From the NCBI GenBank assembly GCA_016195215.1, contig JACPZY010000082.1, positions 1-32,012 of the forward strand: DNA of 32,012 nucleotides, read 5' to 3'. The position numbers and the translations under genes are program-made. Below are positions 15,538 to 22,360 of this stretch, in pieces. The notes below the pieces were generated by a model that was not told the DNA's origin, searched no databases, and saw only the letters and a list, made by a program, of their open reading frames with translations. Position 1 is the first letter of the stretch, and each line of letters opens with the position of its first letter. Source of the stretch: Actinomycetota bacterium. Lineage in GTDB: Bacteria > Actinomycetota > Actinomycetes > Nanopelagicales > Nanopelagicaceae.

Positions 15538-16185
15538 ATGGGGCTTACCTTGCGACTTGTACTGGCAGTCACTTCTTCAACCGCACTTCTTGAAGTTAAC
15601 AAAACGCCGAGCCTTATTAGAGCCATCCATGGTCTACAGGAGTACTGGCCGACACTCCCACTCACGGTGGCGGTGGATGAAAAGCATTCATCGGCAGTCT
15701 CTGAATTACTTGAAAAGAATCGGATTTCCCACGAGTTACTTCTCTGTAATCCAGGTAATCCCAATGATTTTGCGAAAGCCCTGGCTCCCGAATCTAAGAT
15801 TTGCGATGCACTCCTCATTCATGATGCTTCTCGACCGTTGACAAGTCGAGAGCAATTTTCGCGAATAATTGAGGCATTTGGCGAATCGATCGATGCGGTG
15901 AGGCCTTCTATAGCATTCACTGAAACATTAAAGATTATTGAATCAGGCTCACGTATTAAGGAGACTCTAGACCGAACCTCAGTAAGAAGAATTTCGACTC
16001 CTGAACTCATTCGTACTTCGGCAATAGATATCAAGGGTGATGACCGAGGTTGGTTTCTACCGCTCACGCGGAACGCCGCACTAGAACACGTTGAAGGAAG
16101 TCCTGAAGGTCTGAGAATCAATTCAGAGGCAGAGCGAGATCTCCTTGAGTCCTTCCTACATTGGCGTCAAAGAACCGTCAAATGA
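15538..16185 (+). CDS. IspD-like protein lacking the CTP-binding loop (paralogue A)
   Basis: A 215-residue protein with the IspD (2-C-methyl-D-erythritol 4-phosphate cytidylyltransferase) fold. It keeps HDASRP (Asp96, Arg99), the ETLK strand (Thr130, matching E. coli Thr140) and ETLDRT (Arg146, matching Arg157), the arm that binds methylerythritol phosphate. It has lost the N-terminal nucleotide loop: where IspD has AAGxGxR...K this protein reads AVTSSTALLEVNK. The GGxxRxxS segment is replaced by NPGNPNDF, and the Lys of NIKVT is Arg193. It cannot be a complete cytidylyltransferase alone. No ribosome-binding site precedes ATG 15538, so it may be leaderless. It converges on the zinc-ribbon/IspD-B pair. 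It may be a partner subunit of IspD-B or an inactive relict. Confidence 0.82.
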   Translation: MGLTLRLVLAVTSSTALLEVNKTPSLIRAIHGLQEYWPTLPLTVAVDEKHSSAVSELLEKNRISHELLLCNPGNPNDFAKALAPESKICDALLIHDASRPLTSREQFSRIIEAFGESIDAVRPSIAFTETLKIIESGSRIKETLDRTSVRRISTPELIRTSAIDIKGDDRGWFLPLTRNAALEHVEGSPEGLRINSEAERDLLESFLHWRQRTVK

Positions 16186-16198
16186 GTGCCGGGGCTAA

Positions 16199-16510
16199 TT
16201 AGCGGAATAGAGATTTTATCTCTCCCCAGAACTTTCCTGGTTGTTGCATCATTTTCCGGGGCATGCTCCACATGAGACCAACCGGAGACTTCCAGAACCG
16301 TCTCCATAGTCGCGCCGGCTTCGTTGCGATCCGATTTTCAAGGTCTTTGATGTAATGAATTCTTAGGTCGCCGGGTTCGTGTTTCACCTGCATATGACAA
16401 ATCTGGCAGGTACTTGAAACTATTAATCGGCCTGCGTACACAAGTGCATGGAGAGTCTCCTGGTCACAGTGAGCACAATGTAATTCTGCATACATCACTT
16501 CATCTGTCAT
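16199..16510 (-). CDS. Small zinc-ribbon protein of unknown function
   Basis: A 103-residue protein. The N-terminal half holds two CxxC pairs (Cys12/Cys15 in HCAHC and Cys35/Cys38 in TCQIC), the layout of a zinc ribbon. The C-terminal half is basic, Trp- and Arg-rich (ARLWRRFWKSP, MWSMPRKMM) and ends in FWGEIKSLFR. It resembles small 'bh'-type zinc-ribbon proteins I recall from other Gram-positives, but I cannot name a function. Its ATG overlaps the stop of the upstream IspD gene by four bases (ATGA), so the two are translated together. It ends 13 bases from the convergent IspD-like paralogue A. Confidence 0.8.
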   Translation of the reverse strand: MTDEVMYAELHCAHCDQETLHALVYAGRLIVSSTCQICHMQVKHEPGDLRIHYIKDLENRIATKPARLWRRFWKSPVGLMWSMPRKMMQQPGKFWGEIKSLFR

Positions 16511-17226
16511 TCTACATACCCCCGCATTTCAAGGACGTGTTCAGCGATAACGAGGTCTTGCGGATAAGTAATTTTAACATTCTGAGTTTCGCCAGCGACG
16601 GCAATATTCTTATTCTCTGGGAAGTATTCCTCCATGCACGCGGCCGTATCTGTGCCCACGAACTTGTCGTGGTGTGCCTTCTGGTAGGCGGATAGGAGTT
16701 CACTCGCCCTGAAGGCTTGTGGAGTTTGGACTCGGACAATCTGATTCTCGCACTTGTAATCAATTTCGAACGGGTCTACCACGATTGCAGGAACGGCACC
16801 TCCATGTTGGTGGGCAGTCCGTGCGACATCATGGAAGAGCATGCTCGTTGCTAGCGGGCGTGCTCCATCGTGAATGAGCACCACATTTATCCTTCCGTCA
16901 GTAATCGCTGGAGCAAGATGGATAAGTGCGTTGTACTCAGAATCGTGACGGGTCTCTCCGCCCTCTACGAGTTCGACTTCAACGTCTGAAGCCTCCCGTT
17001 CGAGAACCTGATTAGCCAACAGAGCGTCCTGCGGACTGATGACCAGAACTGTCCGACAGCCCGGAAAACTCTTCACTGCGTTGGCGATGGAGCGAGAGAT
17101 TATGCGGCGGCCACCCAGAGGAAGCCATACCTTATTAGTCGCGCTACTAAAGCGAGATCCACTTCCCGCTGCCAGAATGACCACGGCAATCCGCATGGGC
17201 TCGAGCAGGGCCGTACGCGCTTCCAT
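16507..17226 (-). CDS. ispD: 2-C-methyl-D-erythritol 4-phosphate cytidylyltransferase-like (IspD, paralogue B)
   Basis: A 239-residue IspD-family nucleotidyltransferase of the MEP isoprenoid pathway. The CTP-binding part is intact: AAGSGSR at 19-25, Lys32, GGETRHDS at 89-96, HDGARP with metal-binding Asp120 and Arg123, and NVKIT with Lys218. The methylerythritol-phosphate arm is altered: the DTMK strand reads DPFE (Pro152 where E. coli has Thr140), and about ten residues containing the TVDR motif (Arg157) are missing before TPQAF. The first ATG at 17226 has AGGA upstream; ATG 17196 would remove ten residues. Whether it is active alone is doubtful; IspD-like paralogue A at 15538 has exactly the missing elements. 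Confidence 0.86.
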   Translation of the reverse strand: MEARTALLEPMRIAVVILAAGSGSRFSSATNKVWLPLGGRRIISRSIANAVKSFPGCRTVLVISPQDALLANQVLEREASDVEVELVEGGETRHDSEYNALIHLAPAITDGRINVVLIHDGARPLATSMLFHDVARTAHQHGGAVPAIVVDPFEIDYKCENQIVRVQTPQAFRASELLSAYQKAHHDKFVGTDTAACMEEYFPENKNIAVAGETQNVKITYPQDLVIAEHVLEMRGYVE

Positions 17227-17305: not shown

Positions 17306-17572
17306 ATGGCTCTCACTCGGTGGATTCCACGAAAATCCTTTGAGGAGGCGATGGTGAAAGCTGAGAATCTCAAGAGAGCGGTCGCAGCCAGAGAGCGGCG
17401 CAATTCACTCCTCTTTACTGAAGCCCAAGAGAACTTCCGTCGAGAATTACTCCTGCACCCGCGAGACGAGATGCCCATTGCGCAGAATTACGATTGCCCG
17501 TTCTGCCAGGGCAGCCCTCCTCGAATTAGACCGTCGCGCTCACCCATAAGAGTCCGTATTACGCGTAAGTAA
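17306..17572 (+). CDS. Hypothetical small basic protein with CxxC motif
   Basis: An 88-residue open frame that fills the otherwise empty 330 bases between ispD and the dehydrogenase gene, on the opposite strand to both. It predicts an Arg/Lys-rich amphipathic helix (about 10-50) and a CPFCQG motif near residue 64, followed by a basic tail; it could bind nucleic acid or metal. Codon use looks like that of its neighbours. No clear ribosome-binding site precedes ATG 17306. The end overlaps the dehydrogenase 3' end by 14 bases. I do not recognise the family. If it is not real, this interval holds only the ispD promoter. Confidence 0.45.
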   Translation: MALTRWIPRKSFEEAMVKAENLKRAVAARERRNSLLFTEAQENFRRELLLHPRDEMPIAQNYDCPFCQGSPPRIRPSRSPIRVRITRK

Positions 17573-18848
17573 GTCCAAGATTGTCCTGCATACGCCGTAG
17601 CTGCACGATCAGACTCGATTCATTGAGTTCGACCTGATCATAAGTAATCAATTCTCCTACCCTGATTGTTTTCTGAACGGTCGCTCCTTGAATTAATCCG
17701 ATAGGCACGAAGTTATCGCGCTTTGCATCCTGCGCGATATCGGAATAGCCGCGGACGGCGTAGCCACCAATGCCATCGATCTTCTCGCCTGGATTCAGAT
17801 CCTTCTTCGCCATCGCACAGACCTCCGCTTGCAGATGAGGCGCAAAGAGGGAGGACTCGCGATCGAGAACCGCGCGAGCCACCGAAAGTGGTGCCTCGAC
17901 AGATGCCAAGTGGTACGGACGGTAAAGGGCAAAGTAAGGACCAGCGCCCATGCCAAGGTAGCTCATCTCATGATTGATATATGGCGCATCTGTGCGAACG
18001 ATGACAAAAACACCCGGTGCCACATCACCAGTGCAGTAATCAACAACTCCTGGACGATCTAGGACGCCCCCGTCGCCTTGGAGGGCAAAGACGCTCTGTA
18101 ATGTTGTTCGGGATGCTGCTGGTCCATACATGCCGCGCTTGGACAATTCCAAACCCGTTGTATTCGCAAGGGCCGCCATCTCGATCATTGTCTTTGAACC
18201 ATCGGTAAATGAGCAGAGCATCTTCGGATTCATCTGCTTTGCGATTGCGCGCTCCTTTACGGTATCTGGATTACTCAAAGGTTCGAATGGGTTGTTCTTT
18301 CCTTTGCCTGCGGCAACAATCTCGAATTGAAGATCTCGTGCGAAATCTACGAGAACCTTTGCCTCAACGGGCTCATCTCCGTGACAGACGGTGTATACCG
18401 ACCCGCCGAGTTGGGCGGTGCGATGAAGTAGCGGTCCAATGGTCACATCCATCTCTACATTAAGAACGGCAACGTCCTTCTTCGCTAGAAGGCTCTGATA
18501 AGTAACTCGCGCTCCAATATCTGGCACGCCAGTCGCCTCAACAACAATGTCATACGGAAGTTCTGAAATAAATTCCGTTGTAGTTGTACCAGCGGCCTTG
18601 CCAGCCATCAACGCGTCGGTCAGCACCTTTGGATCGGTGCTTACTACGGCATCGTTGATGCCAATATCTTTAAATAAGGCGTGGATGCGTGCTGGATCAA
18701 TGTCAACAACCAAGGTAAGTGAGAGTCCAGGCATTCTCGCTATCTGGCAGCCAAATCCATGCCCCATCTGTCCGGCGCCAACTAGTGCGACTCGGACATC
18801 TCTTCCTAAAGTTTTTGCGTGATCTTGGAGGCGCTTTGTGTATGCCAT
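17559..18848 (-). CDS. NAD(P)-dependent dehydrogenase with C-terminal SAF domain (COG4091 type, DRL-like)
   Basis: A 429-residue protein with an N-terminal Rossmann domain (GAGQMG at 24-29, Asp at VVDIDP), an EATG strand end, a central substrate domain with CHGDEP and AAGKGKNNPF, and a C-terminal SAF-like domain from about residue 345. Databases usually label this group 'predicted homoserine dehydrogenase'. From memory, the Brucella DXP reductoisomerase-like enzyme (DRL), which makes methylerythritol phosphate, belongs to the same group. It ends the glucitol-type PTS operon, 23 bases after IIA, where a polyol-phosphate dehydrogenase would be expected; no SrlD-type dehydrogenase is present. 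The likely substrate is therefore the phosphorylated product of this PTS, or DXP/MEP. The exact reaction is not proven. Confidence 0.85.
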   Translation of the reverse strand: MAYTKRLQDHAKTLGRDVRVALVGAGQMGHGFGCQIARMPGLSLTLVVDIDPARIHALFKDIGINDAVVSTDPKVLTDALMAGKAAGTTTTEFISELPYDIVVEATGVPDIGARVTYQSLLAKKDVAVLNVEMDVTIGPLLHRTAQLGGSVYTVCHGDEPVEAKVLVDFARDLQFEIVAAGKGKNNPFEPLSNPDTVKERAIAKQMNPKMLCSFTDGSKTMIEMAALANTTGLELSKRGMYGPAASRTTLQSVFALQGDGGVLDRPGVVDYCTGDVAPGVFVIVRTDAPYINHEMSYLGMGAGPYFALYRPYHLASVEAPLSVARAVLDRESSLFAPHLQAEVCAMAKKDLNPGEKIDGIGGYAVRGYSDIAQDAKRDNFVPIGLIQGATVQKTIRVGELITYDQVELNESSLIVQLRRMQDNLGLTYA

Positions 18849-18871
18849 GGTGCCAACACTCGATTCATTTT

Positions 18872-19243
18872 TTAGTTTTGCGCTATAACCTGAAGTCTAT
18901 CTCCGACTTTTACCATCGGCAATTCACGTGCTTCTACATTTACATCACCGGGTAATTCTGCATCCGAAAGTCCATTCGCTTTTAAATCCAGGTGACCAAG
19001 ATTTAATAGATTTTCGCTTGCAACAGAGCCCACCGCAAGCACTGTGAAGTAATCATCATTAAGCGCGATTCTGTCACCAACAATCGGAGCACGTTTGTGA
19101 TTATCAACTCTGTGCAATATGGAAAATTCGTGGAGTTCTTCCGGTGCATTCTCTCCAAACCATACGAGCAGACCCTGTTCGCGAAAGTCGGCAACTAATG
19201 CGCCGACAGCAGTGACCGTTGATGAATAAACGACTTCAGGCAA
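18872..19243 (-). CDS. srlB: PTS glucitol/sorbitol-family IIA component
   Basis: A 123-residue IIA-Gut protein that passes phosphate from HPr to IIB. Family features are the beta-rich fold with EFSILHRVDNH, where His44 is the probable phosphorylated residue, then GDRIALNDDYFTVLAVG, NLLNLGHLDLK and AELPGDVNVEA. The start is TTG 19243 (AGAGG about ten bases upstream). It follows the IIB gene by six bases and precedes the SAF-domain dehydrogenase. The gene symbol marks family membership; the true sugar alcohol need not be glucitol. Confidence 0.9.
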   Translation of the reverse strand: MPEVVYSSTVTAVGALVADFREQGLLVWFGENAPEELHEFSILHRVDNHKRAPIVGDRIALNDDYFTVLAVGSVASENLLNLGHLDLKANGLSDAELPGDVNVEARELPMVKVGDRLQVIAQN

Positions 19244-19249
19244 AGTAAC

Positions 19250-19621
19250 TCAAACCTCTTTGATGTTATCCACTTTTACGCCAGAGACAAAGAGATCGGC
19301 CGTGATAAACATTGCAAGGGGGCCAGCCGGGCTTGCACCGTGAATATCGACAGTGGGCACTTTCTTCATTGGGTAGACACCAACGCGTGCCGTGCCCCCG
19401 CAATCAATTACTGCAACCGCAATCTTATCAAAGGGAACACTGCTTTTAAATCCATCAAATGGAGTACCGCCTGTTAGTTCAGCGATTCGGGCAGCAACCG
19501 GATGAATGCCGCCACCGGTAACCGAATAGATGTAGGGACGATCATCAGTCGGGGTTATGGTGAGTGGTCCGCCCCATCCGCCCTTGCCTGCATCGATCTT
19601 TACGCTCTTAAAATCTCCCAT
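19250..19621 (-). CDS. srlE: PTS glucitol/sorbitol-family IIB domain (N-terminal half of a split EIIBC)
   Basis: A 123-residue protein equal to the N-terminal IIB part of the enterobacterial SrlE/GutE. It opens with the hallmark KGGWGGPL, then VTGGGIHPVAARIAELTGG, the phosphocysteine motif VIDCGGT (Cys74) and GVYPMKKVPTVDIHG, ending SGVKVDNIKEV where the fused protein continues into its membrane part. Here it stops and the rest is a separate upstream gene at 19755-20303. The start is ATG 19621, set by AAGGAG nine bases upstream; earlier in-frame codons (to 19660) are not conserved. A large hairpin separates the two halves. Confidence 0.9.
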   Translation of the reverse strand: MGDFKSVKIDAGKGGWGGPLTITPTDDRPYIYSVTGGGIHPVAARIAELTGGTPFDGFKSSVPFDKIAVAVIDCGGTARVGVYPMKKVPTVDIHGASPAGPLAMFITADLFVSGVKVDNIKEV

Positions 19622-19692
19622 TGCAACTAACTCCTTATTTGATGACGAGGATTTCCTCATCTGCCAGTTTCTACTCTCTATTAACTTACTCG

Positions 19693-19728
19693 GTACGTGT
19701 GCGGGGAACCAGACCCCCGCACACGTAC
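19693..19728 (-). other. 14-bp perfect hairpin between the two EIIBC halves
   Basis: GTACGTGTGCGGGG (19693-19706) and CCCCGCACACGTAC (19715-19728) are exact complements around an eight-base loop. It lies in the 133-base gap between the membrane half (ends 19755) and the IIB gene (starts 19621) on the same transcript. No T run follows, so it is more likely an mRNA stabiliser, processing site or leaky attenuator than a full terminator. Confidence 0.75.
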
Positions 19729-19754
19729 TCGAGATCTACTGCTTTATGTACTAC

Positions 19755-20303
19755 CTATTTGCTTGTGCTGTAGAGGCCGAAAGATGCGAAGTACGCAATA
19801 ACGACCGCCAATGGACCGGTAATGACGCGAGAGAAGAGTACGGCGGGGACACCAATCTCTACTGTCGCAGGCTCGGCCTCTCCAAGAGCCAGACCGACCG
19901 GGATGAAGTCGGCACCAACCTGTGGGTTGATTGCAAAGAGAGCTGGAAGAGAGTACTGGGCAGGAATATTTCCCTTTCCAATTTCAACTCCCAGAAGTGT
20001 TCCAATGATTTGAGCAATAACTGCGCCCGGTCCAAGCAATGGAGAAAGGATTGGGATTGAAATAACGATAGAGATGAGAATCAATCCAGGGAGCGATGAA
20101 GCCGATCCCTTCAGGCCTTTCGCAATCCAGTCACCAATACCGGTCGTAAGGATCAGACCGATAATGAAGGAAATGAATGCCATAAACGGGATTACGTTAC
20201 GAATTACTGTGTCGACGCTGTCGCGGCCGGATTGATACAGAATTCCGACAACTCCACCGACACCGCGGCCAATCTTGACGATAACGCTCGTGAAACTTGC
20301 CAT
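19755..20303 (-). CDS. srlE: PTS glucitol/sorbitol-family membrane domain (C-terminal half of a split EIIBC)
   Basis: A 182-residue membrane protein equal to the C-terminal domain of SrlE (EII-GUT_C). It begins with RGVGGVVGILYQSGRDSVDTVIRNVIPFMAFIS, then has four or so membrane helices, the conserved LLGPGAVIAQIIGTLLGVEIG and GADFIPVGLALGEAEP segments, and a final helix. With the IIC protein encoded just upstream it should form the transport channel. GGAGG lies eight bases before ATG 20303; the gap to the IIC gene is three bases. Gene symbol given for the family only. Confidence 0.9.
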   Translation of the reverse strand: MASFTSVIVKIGRGVGGVVGILYQSGRDSVDTVIRNVIPFMAFISFIIGLILTTGIGDWIAKGLKGSASSLPGLILISIVISIPILSPLLGPGAVIAQIIGTLLGVEIGKGNIPAQYSLPALFAINPQVGADFIPVGLALGEAEPATVEIGVPAVLFSRVITGPLAVVIAYFASFGLYSTSK

Positions 20304-20306
20304 GAT

Positions 20307-20909
20307 TTAGGCCTCCCTCTCGGCTTTGGTCATCATTCGCGCTGTGATTGCCTCAGTGACAATTCCGCGGATGAAGATAACGACCAGACCAACTAGCAAG
20401 TAACGAACTGCTAGATCTCCTAATCCATATCCCAATTGCTGAATACCGGTTGCAATTCCCAGGTAAACAAAGAGTTCACCAGGATTTGCATGCGGAAAAA
20501 TACCCAGAATTGGATGGACAAAAGAGACTGCTGAGTCGTAGAACGCCGGTTTGAAGCGCTCGGGTAAGAAACGACCCATCGTGTATGCCATTGGATTGGT
20601 CAGCAAAAAGACCGAGACAAAGGGGAGAACGATGTAGCGCACTGGGTACCACTGGAAACCAGGACGCGCAGCAGCTCTTCCGAGATTTTCGATTTTCTCT
20701 GGACCAATCAGTCGTACGAGAGCATTCACTGCAGTCAACAGGACTATCAGTGTCGGAAGAATTCCCCCCATAAGACTGAGAAGAACCGATCCGCCTTTAT
20801 TGAAGACTCTGATAAAGTCTTCAGCGGCTGTAGCCAACGCGCCCAGAAAGCCCGTTGGTTTATCAACCGTAACTGCGGCTGCGTATGCAACCAATCCACT
20901 TAATGCCAC
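20307..20909 (-). CDS. srlA: PTS glucitol/sorbitol-family IIC component
   Basis: A 200-residue membrane protein of the EIIC-GUT family, with about four to five helices. Typical stretches are GGILPTLIVLLTAVNALVRLIG, LPFVSVFLLTNPMAYTMGRFLP, HANPGELFVYLGIATGIQQLG and a C-terminal RGIVTEAITARMM. It forms the channel together with the C-terminal half of the split EIIBC encoded three bases downstream. The start is GTG 20909 behind GAGGAGG; the nearby ATG is out of frame and closes at once. Confidence 0.92.
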   Translation of the reverse strand: MALSGLVAYAAAVTVDKPTGFLGALATAAEDFIRVFNKGGSVLLSLMGGILPTLIVLLTAVNALVRLIGPEKIENLGRAAARPGFQWYPVRYIVLPFVSVFLLTNPMAYTMGRFLPERFKPAFYDSAVSFVHPILGIFPHANPGELFVYLGIATGIQQLGYGLGDLAVRYLLVGLVVIFIRGIVTEAITARMMTKAEREA

Positions 20910-20966
20910 TTCATCCTCCTCACGGATAAAGGCCGCACGAGCGGCGATTGAAAAGGTCCGGTTGGA

Positions 20967-21386
20967 TTAATATTCCCGGCCCATTTTTTCCCCTTGGTCC
21001 GACCGAGATAGGTAATCCTTAATGTGTTGCGCTGACATCACTGCTGCTTCACGCACTTTATTAGGCTCATCTACCTCCTCTCGATTTCCCGAGAGAATGC
21101 CGTCCAGTGAGAAACCTATGTAGTTTGTTAGTTGGCTCGACTTAGCAAAAACCGTGAAACCTTTGAGCACCAATCCATCTTGCACAATTCCACCATTGTC
21201 AACCGCGAGTGCGACAAAGGCGCGGCCACCTCGGTATCGACGTCCGCCCATTCCCACCGCAACCGTTCCCTTCTTGCGGAGCCCCGAGAGATCGGCTTGA
21301 AATCGCTTTGCCTGCATGTAAGCCAGGGCTAACTGCGACGCCCACATGGCGGCAATAACAAGCAGAAGTCGGGTCAGGAATGTCAT
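20967..21386 (-). CDS. gutM: GutM-family glucitol operon activator protein
   Basis: A 139-residue protein with one N-terminal membrane helix (about residues 3-22, LLLVIAAMWASQLALAYMQ) and a GutM domain: GLRKKGTVAVGMGGRRYRGGRAFVALAVD, then VLKGFTVFAKSS. GutM was described in E. coli as an activator of the glucitol operon, but its mechanism is unclear and the membrane helix suggests action at the membrane. The start ATG 21386 overlaps the SorC-type regulator stop as ATGA; the longer upstream frame lies inside the regulator gene. It sits between regulator and IIC, as in classical gut operons. Confidence 0.88.
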   Translation of the reverse strand: MTFLTRLLLVIAAMWASQLALAYMQAKRFQADLSGLRKKGTVAVGMGGRRYRGGRAFVALAVDNGGIVQDGLVLKGFTVFAKSSQLTNYIGFSLDGILSGNREEVDEPNKVREAAVMSAQHIKDYLSRSDQGEKMGREY

Positions 21387-22360
21387 GCGCTGCGAACCGC
21401 CTTTGCTGGGGTGATGAGTTTGAGAAGTTCGGTTGCACAAGCGACATCAGTGATAAGCGTGTCTATCAAGCGAGCTCGAGCCGCACCAAGAACTCCAAGA
21501 GCTTTTTCGACTCCCGCTGCAACGCCTATGACAAGAGGAATATCGGAGATCTCTTCCAAAGTAAGACCGACTACTCGATTATCCATTTCGAGACTGACAG
21601 CTCGCCCCTGGCTATCGTAAAAACGGGCGGAGATATCTCCGGCATAATTTTTTGCAACGCTCTCGTGGACTGTTTTACTCAGGTTAAATTGTTTGAGAAC
21701 ATCTTCACTAGACGGCGAACCGCGTGAACCGATTCCGACCAGGGCGATATTTGATTCACGGGCGATTTCAAGAACACGGTCAATGGAAGATTCATTCAGA
21801 AGAGTGTTCCGTGTTTTGGAATTACTCACTACCGCCGGTGAGAGCAATGGCACAAACTGGGCATGAAGATTCTGCGCCAACGTCCGCCCTAATTCTTCAG
21901 CACTGACAGAGCTCGCCACAGAGGAGAGTCCACCCATTAATTGAGTCACTCTTAACCCCGGGAAAGTTTCATTCTGTACTTCCACAATCGCAGCCTCTAC
22001 ACCGCGTCCCCAAGAAATTGCGATCGTCATGTTTGGTTGCAATGCTCGAGTCAGCGCCATAGCCGCGGCGCGCCCAACAGAGGTAAGTGTGGTTTCGGAG
22101 CGATCAGTACCAATCACTTGCACTTCGCGAATGCCAATGGCCTTCTTTAACTGATGAGAGAGCGAATCATGACGTGTAATTGGTGCAACAATCTTTATCT
22201 GCACAAAGCCCATCCGCTTTGCATCCGAGAGCATTCGAGAAATATTTGAGCGGGAAGTACCCATCACTCGCGCAACCTGATCTTGCGACTGTCCCTTTTC
22301 GTAGTAGAGGCGCGCAACCCGGAGAATCGACTCCGTGTCTCGAGGTTTCACTATCGTCAC
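21383..22360 (-). CDS. SorC/DeoR-type sugar-binding transcriptional regulator
   Basis: A 325-residue regulator. The N-terminal helix-turn-helix (about residues 12-57) reads RLYYEKGQSQDQVARVMGTS RSNISRM in sense order, followed by the SorC sugar-phosphate-binding domain with SVGRAAAMAL, ISWGRGVEAA, QLMGGL, VGIGSRG and VIGVAAGVEKALGVLGA. It probably senses the phosphorylated polyol. The start is GTG 22360 (an alternative GTG lies three codons on). It is the first gene of the glucitol-type PTS operon and overlaps gutM by four bases. A palindrome just upstream (22365-22379) is the likely binding site. Confidence 0.92.
   Translation of the reverse strand: MTIVKPRDTESILRVARLYYEKGQSQDQVARVMGTSRSNISRMLSDAKRMGFVQIKIVAPITRHDSLSHQLKKAIGIREVQVIGTDRSETTLTSVGRAAAMALTRALQPNMTIAISWGRGVEAAIVEVQNETFPGLRVTQLMGGLSSVASSVSAEELGRTLAQNLHAQFVPLLSPAVVSNSKTRNTLLNESSIDRVLEIARESNIALVGIGSRGSPSSEDVLKQFNLSKTVHESVAKNYAGDISARFYDSQGRAVSLEMDNRVVGLTLEEISDIPLVIGVAAGVEKALGVLGAARARLIDTLITDVACATELLKLITPAKAVRSA

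Follow-up and report, generated by a model that had tools for sequence, protein, structure and literature searches.

Can two IspD-like proteins that each lack part of the active site together serve as the methylerythritol phosphate (MEP) cytidylyltransferase of a cell? The question is raised by two neighbouring genes in a 32,012-nucleotide window, the whole stretch of DNA that was analysed, from a draft genome of 2.05 Mb and 95% completeness of the Nanopelagicaceae, a freshwater actinobacterial family. Protein A (215 aa) is encoded at 15538..16185 on the plus strand and protein B (239 aa) at 16507..17226 on the minus strand, so the two genes are convergent; both open reading frames were found as originally predicted, which had left the minus strand of B unstated. 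Evidence from about a hundred genomes suggests that in many actinobacteria two related proteins have taken the place of IspD, an essential isoprenoid enzyme; each is broken by itself, and the two probably join into one working enzyme.

Both proteins scored above the Pfam cut-off for IspD (PF01128). B matched over its whole length (8.2e-40), and the match of A (5.5e-13) was restricted to profile positions 20-166, which places the N-terminal CTP loop outside it. The equivalog cut-off of NCBIfam ispD (TIGR00453, 181.3 bits) was missed by B (152.4 bits) as well as A (63.1 bits), indicating that present family models under-score the pair. The TarI model NF001183 (cut-off 166 bits) gave 78.7 bits with B and no match with A. 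AlphaFold2 models had a pLDDT of 94.7 for A and 91.1 for B. Foldseek grouped both proteins with IspD and TarI structures; the best PDB matches of A were of these two kinds, and that of B was the B. subtilis IspD-CTP structure 5hs2 (32% identity). The model of A has long arm strands (120-134 and 140-152), and that of B has none.

In the 1INI structure of homodimeric IspD, Thr140 and Arg157 reportedly cross into the site of the partner subunit. According to PMC11770629, the two IspD subunits are linked through the beta-arm (E. coli residues 137-159), which also holds the MEP site. We aligned the A and B proteins of 39 Nanopelagicaceae genomes with E. coli IspD, which served for numbering only, and with 30 canonical IspDs; 12 key positions of the E. 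coli sequence showed the expected residues. The alignment bore out the original prediction that A and B have lost opposite halves of the active site. A has Thr130 (E. coli Thr140) and Arg146 (Arg157) in its MEP-binding beta-arm (residues 127-146, FTETLK...LDR; 15916..15975, plus strand) and the HDASRP motif; it lacks the AAGxGxR loop and the GGxxR segment and has Arg193 at the Lys213 position. B contains the AAGSGSR loop with Arg25 and Lys32 (residues 19-32, AAGSGSRF..NK; 17131..17172, minus strand), Asp120 and Lys218. Its arm is truncated by nine residues, and Pro152 lies in the Thr140 region. The segment-length comparison and the absence of Thr140 locate the scar of the lost arm to residues 146-166 (PAIVVDPFEIDYKCENQIVRV; 16729..16791, minus strand).

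This division is conserved. The CTP loop and Lys27 were missing from all 39 Nanopelagicaceae A proteins, which have Arg in place of Lys213 and have kept the arm motif Phe-Thr-Glu-Thr-Leu-Lys, with Thr140 in 38 of 39 and Asp156-Arg157 in every one. Half of the 12 invariant columns of A in the 39-sequence alignment are in the arm (Phe127, Glu129, Leu131, Lys132, Asp145 and Arg146). All complete Nanopelagicaceae B proteins kept the CTP loop, Lys27, Asp106, Arg109 and Lys213, and the Thr140 segment was gone. Among 102 A and A-like proteins (excluding two fragments, L183 and L177), Thr or Ser at position 140 and Arg157 were found in all and Lys27 in none; among 102 B and B-like proteins, Arg20, Lys27 and Lys213 were found in all and Thr140 in none, and Arg157 was missing in nearly all. 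Of 27 core columns that are invariant in canonical IspD, B kept 22 and A kept two, whereas of the canonical arm columns B kept none and A kept Arg157 and Thr/Ser at 140 throughout. The complete CTP site (Gly18, Arg20, Lys27, Gly82, Asp106, Arg109 and Lys213) thus occurs in B and not in A, the arm residues Thr140 and Arg157 occur in A and not in B, and only the pair together has the full set. The pattern is not due to chance, since 39/39 Nanopelagicaceae pairs show it and so does every outgroup pair examined.

The two proteins also differ in how their arms vary in length. The arm segment is 33 aa long in 39/39 Nanopelagicaceae A proteins and 32-33 aa in other A-like proteins. The corresponding segment (P133-P166) measures 24 aa in all Nanopelagicaceae B proteins, compared with 33 for the canonical median, and its length varies between 23 and 36 aa in the remaining B-like proteins. 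A constant length in A and drift in B are expected if only the arm of A works. Overall, A changes more quickly than B, with a mean column identity of 42% vs 70%. The A and B distances correlate (r = 0.91, n = 99 pairs, a few of which may be one genome reached by two routes), which can arise from vertical inheritance alone.

A heterodimer with a single composite site, formed by the core of B and the arm of A, would be expected to show this loss pattern. We therefore consider it highly probable that A and B constitute the MEP cytidylyltransferase of the host as an obligate heterodimer with a single composite active site. B, the proposed nucleotide-binding and catalytic subunit, would bind CTP-Mg and provide the catalytic core with P-loop residues Arg25 and Lys32, Asp120 and Lys218. 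A, an IspD fold without a CTP site and the proposed arm-donating subunit, would insert its beta-arm so that Thr130 and Arg146 hold methylerythritol phosphate in the site of B, as between the subunits of the homodimer. This site would be intact, and the other one, composed of the core of A and the arm of B, would be dead through the loss of both halves. With this second composite site dead, the CTP loop of A and the arm of B could both have been lost. The sequences themselves show the homology, the reciprocal residue losses, the co-occurrence, the exclusion of canonical IspD within the family and the MEP-gene context, and from these we infer the physical complex of A and B, its substrate and its catalysis. 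A broader statement, which we hold to be likely, is that an essential homodimer has become an obligate heterodimer in several actinobacterial groups, the native ispD keeping only the arm and a second IspD-family protein only the nucleotide core. A literature search, with subscription papers mostly beyond its reach, found no described heterodimeric IspD, and we know of none.

A third complete ispD was sought in the host genome and none was found; A and B were the only IspD matches. The suggested co-occurrence of A and B in relatives proved strict, and within Nanopelagicaceae the pair excludes canonical IspD. It was present in 39 genomes of this family (38 besides the host), always adjacent or close, and none of these 39 gave a canonical-level IspD match. 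Among 48 sampled Nanopelagicaceae genomes of at least 95% completeness, 11 had the pair, 37 had canonical IspD, none had both and none had neither. These family-level counts rest largely on draft genomes; the pattern was unchanged in the single-contig genomes G287, G361, G464, G525 and G550, of which the last four are mycobacterial and contain the pair and other nucleotidyltransferases only.

The pair noticed in the original prediction is real, but it extends beyond one genus to several actinobacterial groups. A scan of the genome collection identified B-like genes in Mycolicibacterium, Nocardioides, Rhodococcoides, Hoyosella, Amycolatopsis and others. A-type and B-type proteins co-occur in Mycolicibacterium, Nocardioides, Hoyosella and others, and in Amycolatopsis the two genes are unlinked. 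Outside Nanopelagicaceae, an A-like gene lies next to the B-like gene, in convergent orientation, at 39 of 48 B-like loci. For the other nine, an unlinked A was found in seven genomes; of the last two loci, one is truncated by the end of its contig and the other lay outside the check. Nocardia amamiensis (G333; L191, L202) carries canonical IspD as well as the pair, possibly a transitional or redundant state.

Two genomes (G324 and G369) combine the pair with a third IspD-like type. Proteins of this type (L162, L164, L169, L170, L172-L176, L178-L181, L185-L187, L189 and L199) have the CTP loop, Thr140 and Arg157 all present, and at least two are fused to a short-chain dehydrogenase. Several Actinomycetia families with IspF have the third type as their sole IspD homologue and lack both canonical IspD and the pair. 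Consequently, a missing canonical IspD is by itself no proof that the pair is IspD.

The neighbourhood of B offers evidence of another kind. Directly upstream of B lies a homologue of DXR-II (DRL)-type DXP reductoisomerase (17559..18848, minus strand), which matched PF21135 (1.2e-61) and Brucella DXR-II (PDB 3upy/3upl, 3e-96; 326 bits to 3upy). Thr229 and Arg320 (Brucella numbering) mark functional DXR-II (PMC3847144). Both are conserved in the alignment to 3upy, with His250 replaced by Tyr and Val351 by Gln. The protein would catalyse the MEP-pathway step preceding IspD. It adjoins B in nearly all Nanopelagicaceae pair loci that are not cut by a contig end. Ordinary Dxr was missing in 11 of 12 Nanopelagicaceae pair genomes tested, compared with none of three canonical relatives; in the one pair genome that has it (G275, L067), the DRL gene is 2.6 kb from B. 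IspE and IspF are present in the host genome and in the pair genomes tested. The genomic context supports a putative role of the pair in CDP-ME formation.

Since the nucleotide site of B is complete, B could be the IspD on its own, with A as a prozyme-like regulatory or stabilising pseudoenzyme that gives no active-site residues. Allosterically activating dead paralogues do exist, e.g., in trypanosomatid deoxyhypusine synthase (PMC3663545). We consider this explanation unlikely, because B lacks Thr140 in 102/102 sequences and Arg157 in nearly all, and changing the Thr140 equivalent of Francisella IspD to Asp or Glu removes 75-100% of the activity (PMC3111433). Furthermore, conservation in A is highest at the arm residues, for which a partner acting purely by allostery would have no use. 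That A is a functionless, decaying ispD remnant would fit its lost CTP site and its faster evolution, but we find this scarcely credible for an intact open reading frame with a conserved arm of constant length in about 100 genomes of several families. On the basis of this conservation, A was rejected as a pseudogene.

The substrate could also be a different one. Within the IspD family, TarI, for one, uses ribitol phosphate, and glucitol-type (sugar-alcohol) PTS genes flank B in many loci. The pair might accordingly be a cytidylyltransferase for another polyol phosphate, with CDP-ME supplied by an unrelated, unrecognised enzyme, and some Actinomycetia indeed manage on a TarI-like IspD homologue alone. 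However, such a role is very improbable given the mutual exclusion of the pair and canonical IspD within Nanopelagicaceae, the occupation of the carD-ispD-ispF slot by A or the module in several groups, and the retention of IspE and IspF in the pair genomes tested. In addition, the neighbour of B is DXR-II, and mycobacterial loci are without a PTS match near B.

For the heterodimer, the origin of the two subunits was traced from a phylogenetic tree and synteny. Canonical genomes have the ancestral order carD-ispD-ispF-cysS intact. Amycolatopsis and relatives have carD-A-ispF, with A in the native ispD slot. The slot is empty (carD-ispF) in the host genome, four mycobacteria, Hoyosella and Rhodococcoides, as it is in most pair genomes examined other than the Amycolatopsis group, and the complete genome G287 has the order carD, A, B, DRL, ispF, cysS. 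In the tree, A forms a clade (support 0.92) within actinobacterial canonical IspD and B a separate clade (support 1.0). Subfunctionalisation after a duplication, as first proposed, does not agree with this: A nests in native actinobacterial IspD, B stands apart, and either A or a gap marks the ispD slot. A duplication within the host lineage was rejected on the same tree. A is best read as a degenerate native ispD whose CTP site would have been abandoned. B probably represents a different lineage of the IspD family, which would have assumed the nucleotide-binding part. The sequences are short and divergent and the root of the tree is arbitrary, so an ancient duplication may lie behind A and B.

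Compared with homodimeric IspD (E. coli 1INI/1I52, B. subtilis 5HS2, M. tuberculosis 2XWN), the pair shares the fold, the pathway position and the carD-ispF synteny. Its CTP-site residues are alike in B and its arm residues in A, but the residues of one site are divided over two proteins, leaving the second site apparently dead. TarI and the bifunctional CDP-ribitol synthases (IspD-SDR fusions) belong to the same superfamily as A and B, and the third type in some relatives is of this kind; unlike A and B, they contain the CTP loop, Thr140 and Arg157 in one chain. The IspDF fusions of other Nanopelagicaceae concern the same step and gene slot, but consist of a complete canonical IspD fused to IspF. 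In trypanosomatid deoxyhypusine synthase and AdoMetDC, the active enzyme likewise combines an impaired and an inactive paralogue (PMC3663545, PMC5201418). These unrelated enzymes are described as allosterically activated, whereas the complementary loss in the bacterial pair points to a shared site. If the heterodimer is confirmed, a two-protein enzyme would run a conserved isoprenoid step, a drug and herbicide target, in many actinobacteria. It would also provide a clear example from nature of complementary losses in two proteins that share an active site, and present-day genomes would display several of its states: A in the original ispD position, an empty slot, and both systems side by side.

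The gap between A and B contains a 103-aa open reading frame (16199..16510, minus strand) that overlaps the stop codon of B. Its Cys pairs suggest a zinc-ribbon-like protein; a Pfam search with it gave nothing above cut-off. It adjoins B in many, not all, pair loci, including those of Mycolicibacterium, Nocardia and Kineosporia. The Cys-pair protein is kept as far out as Mycolicibacterium and Nocardia and is missing where A and B abut; its presence at the locus is optional. On the far side of A are pgl, gnd and zwf, named from their sequences. Upstream of B, on the same strand, the DXR-II homologue and glucitol-type PTS genes together occupy 17559-22360, and this neighbourhood of PTS genes, DXR-II and B recurs in many Nanopelagicaceae and in two Kineosporia. 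Speculatively, the PTS could feed an imported polyol or deoxyxylulose to the MEP pathway.
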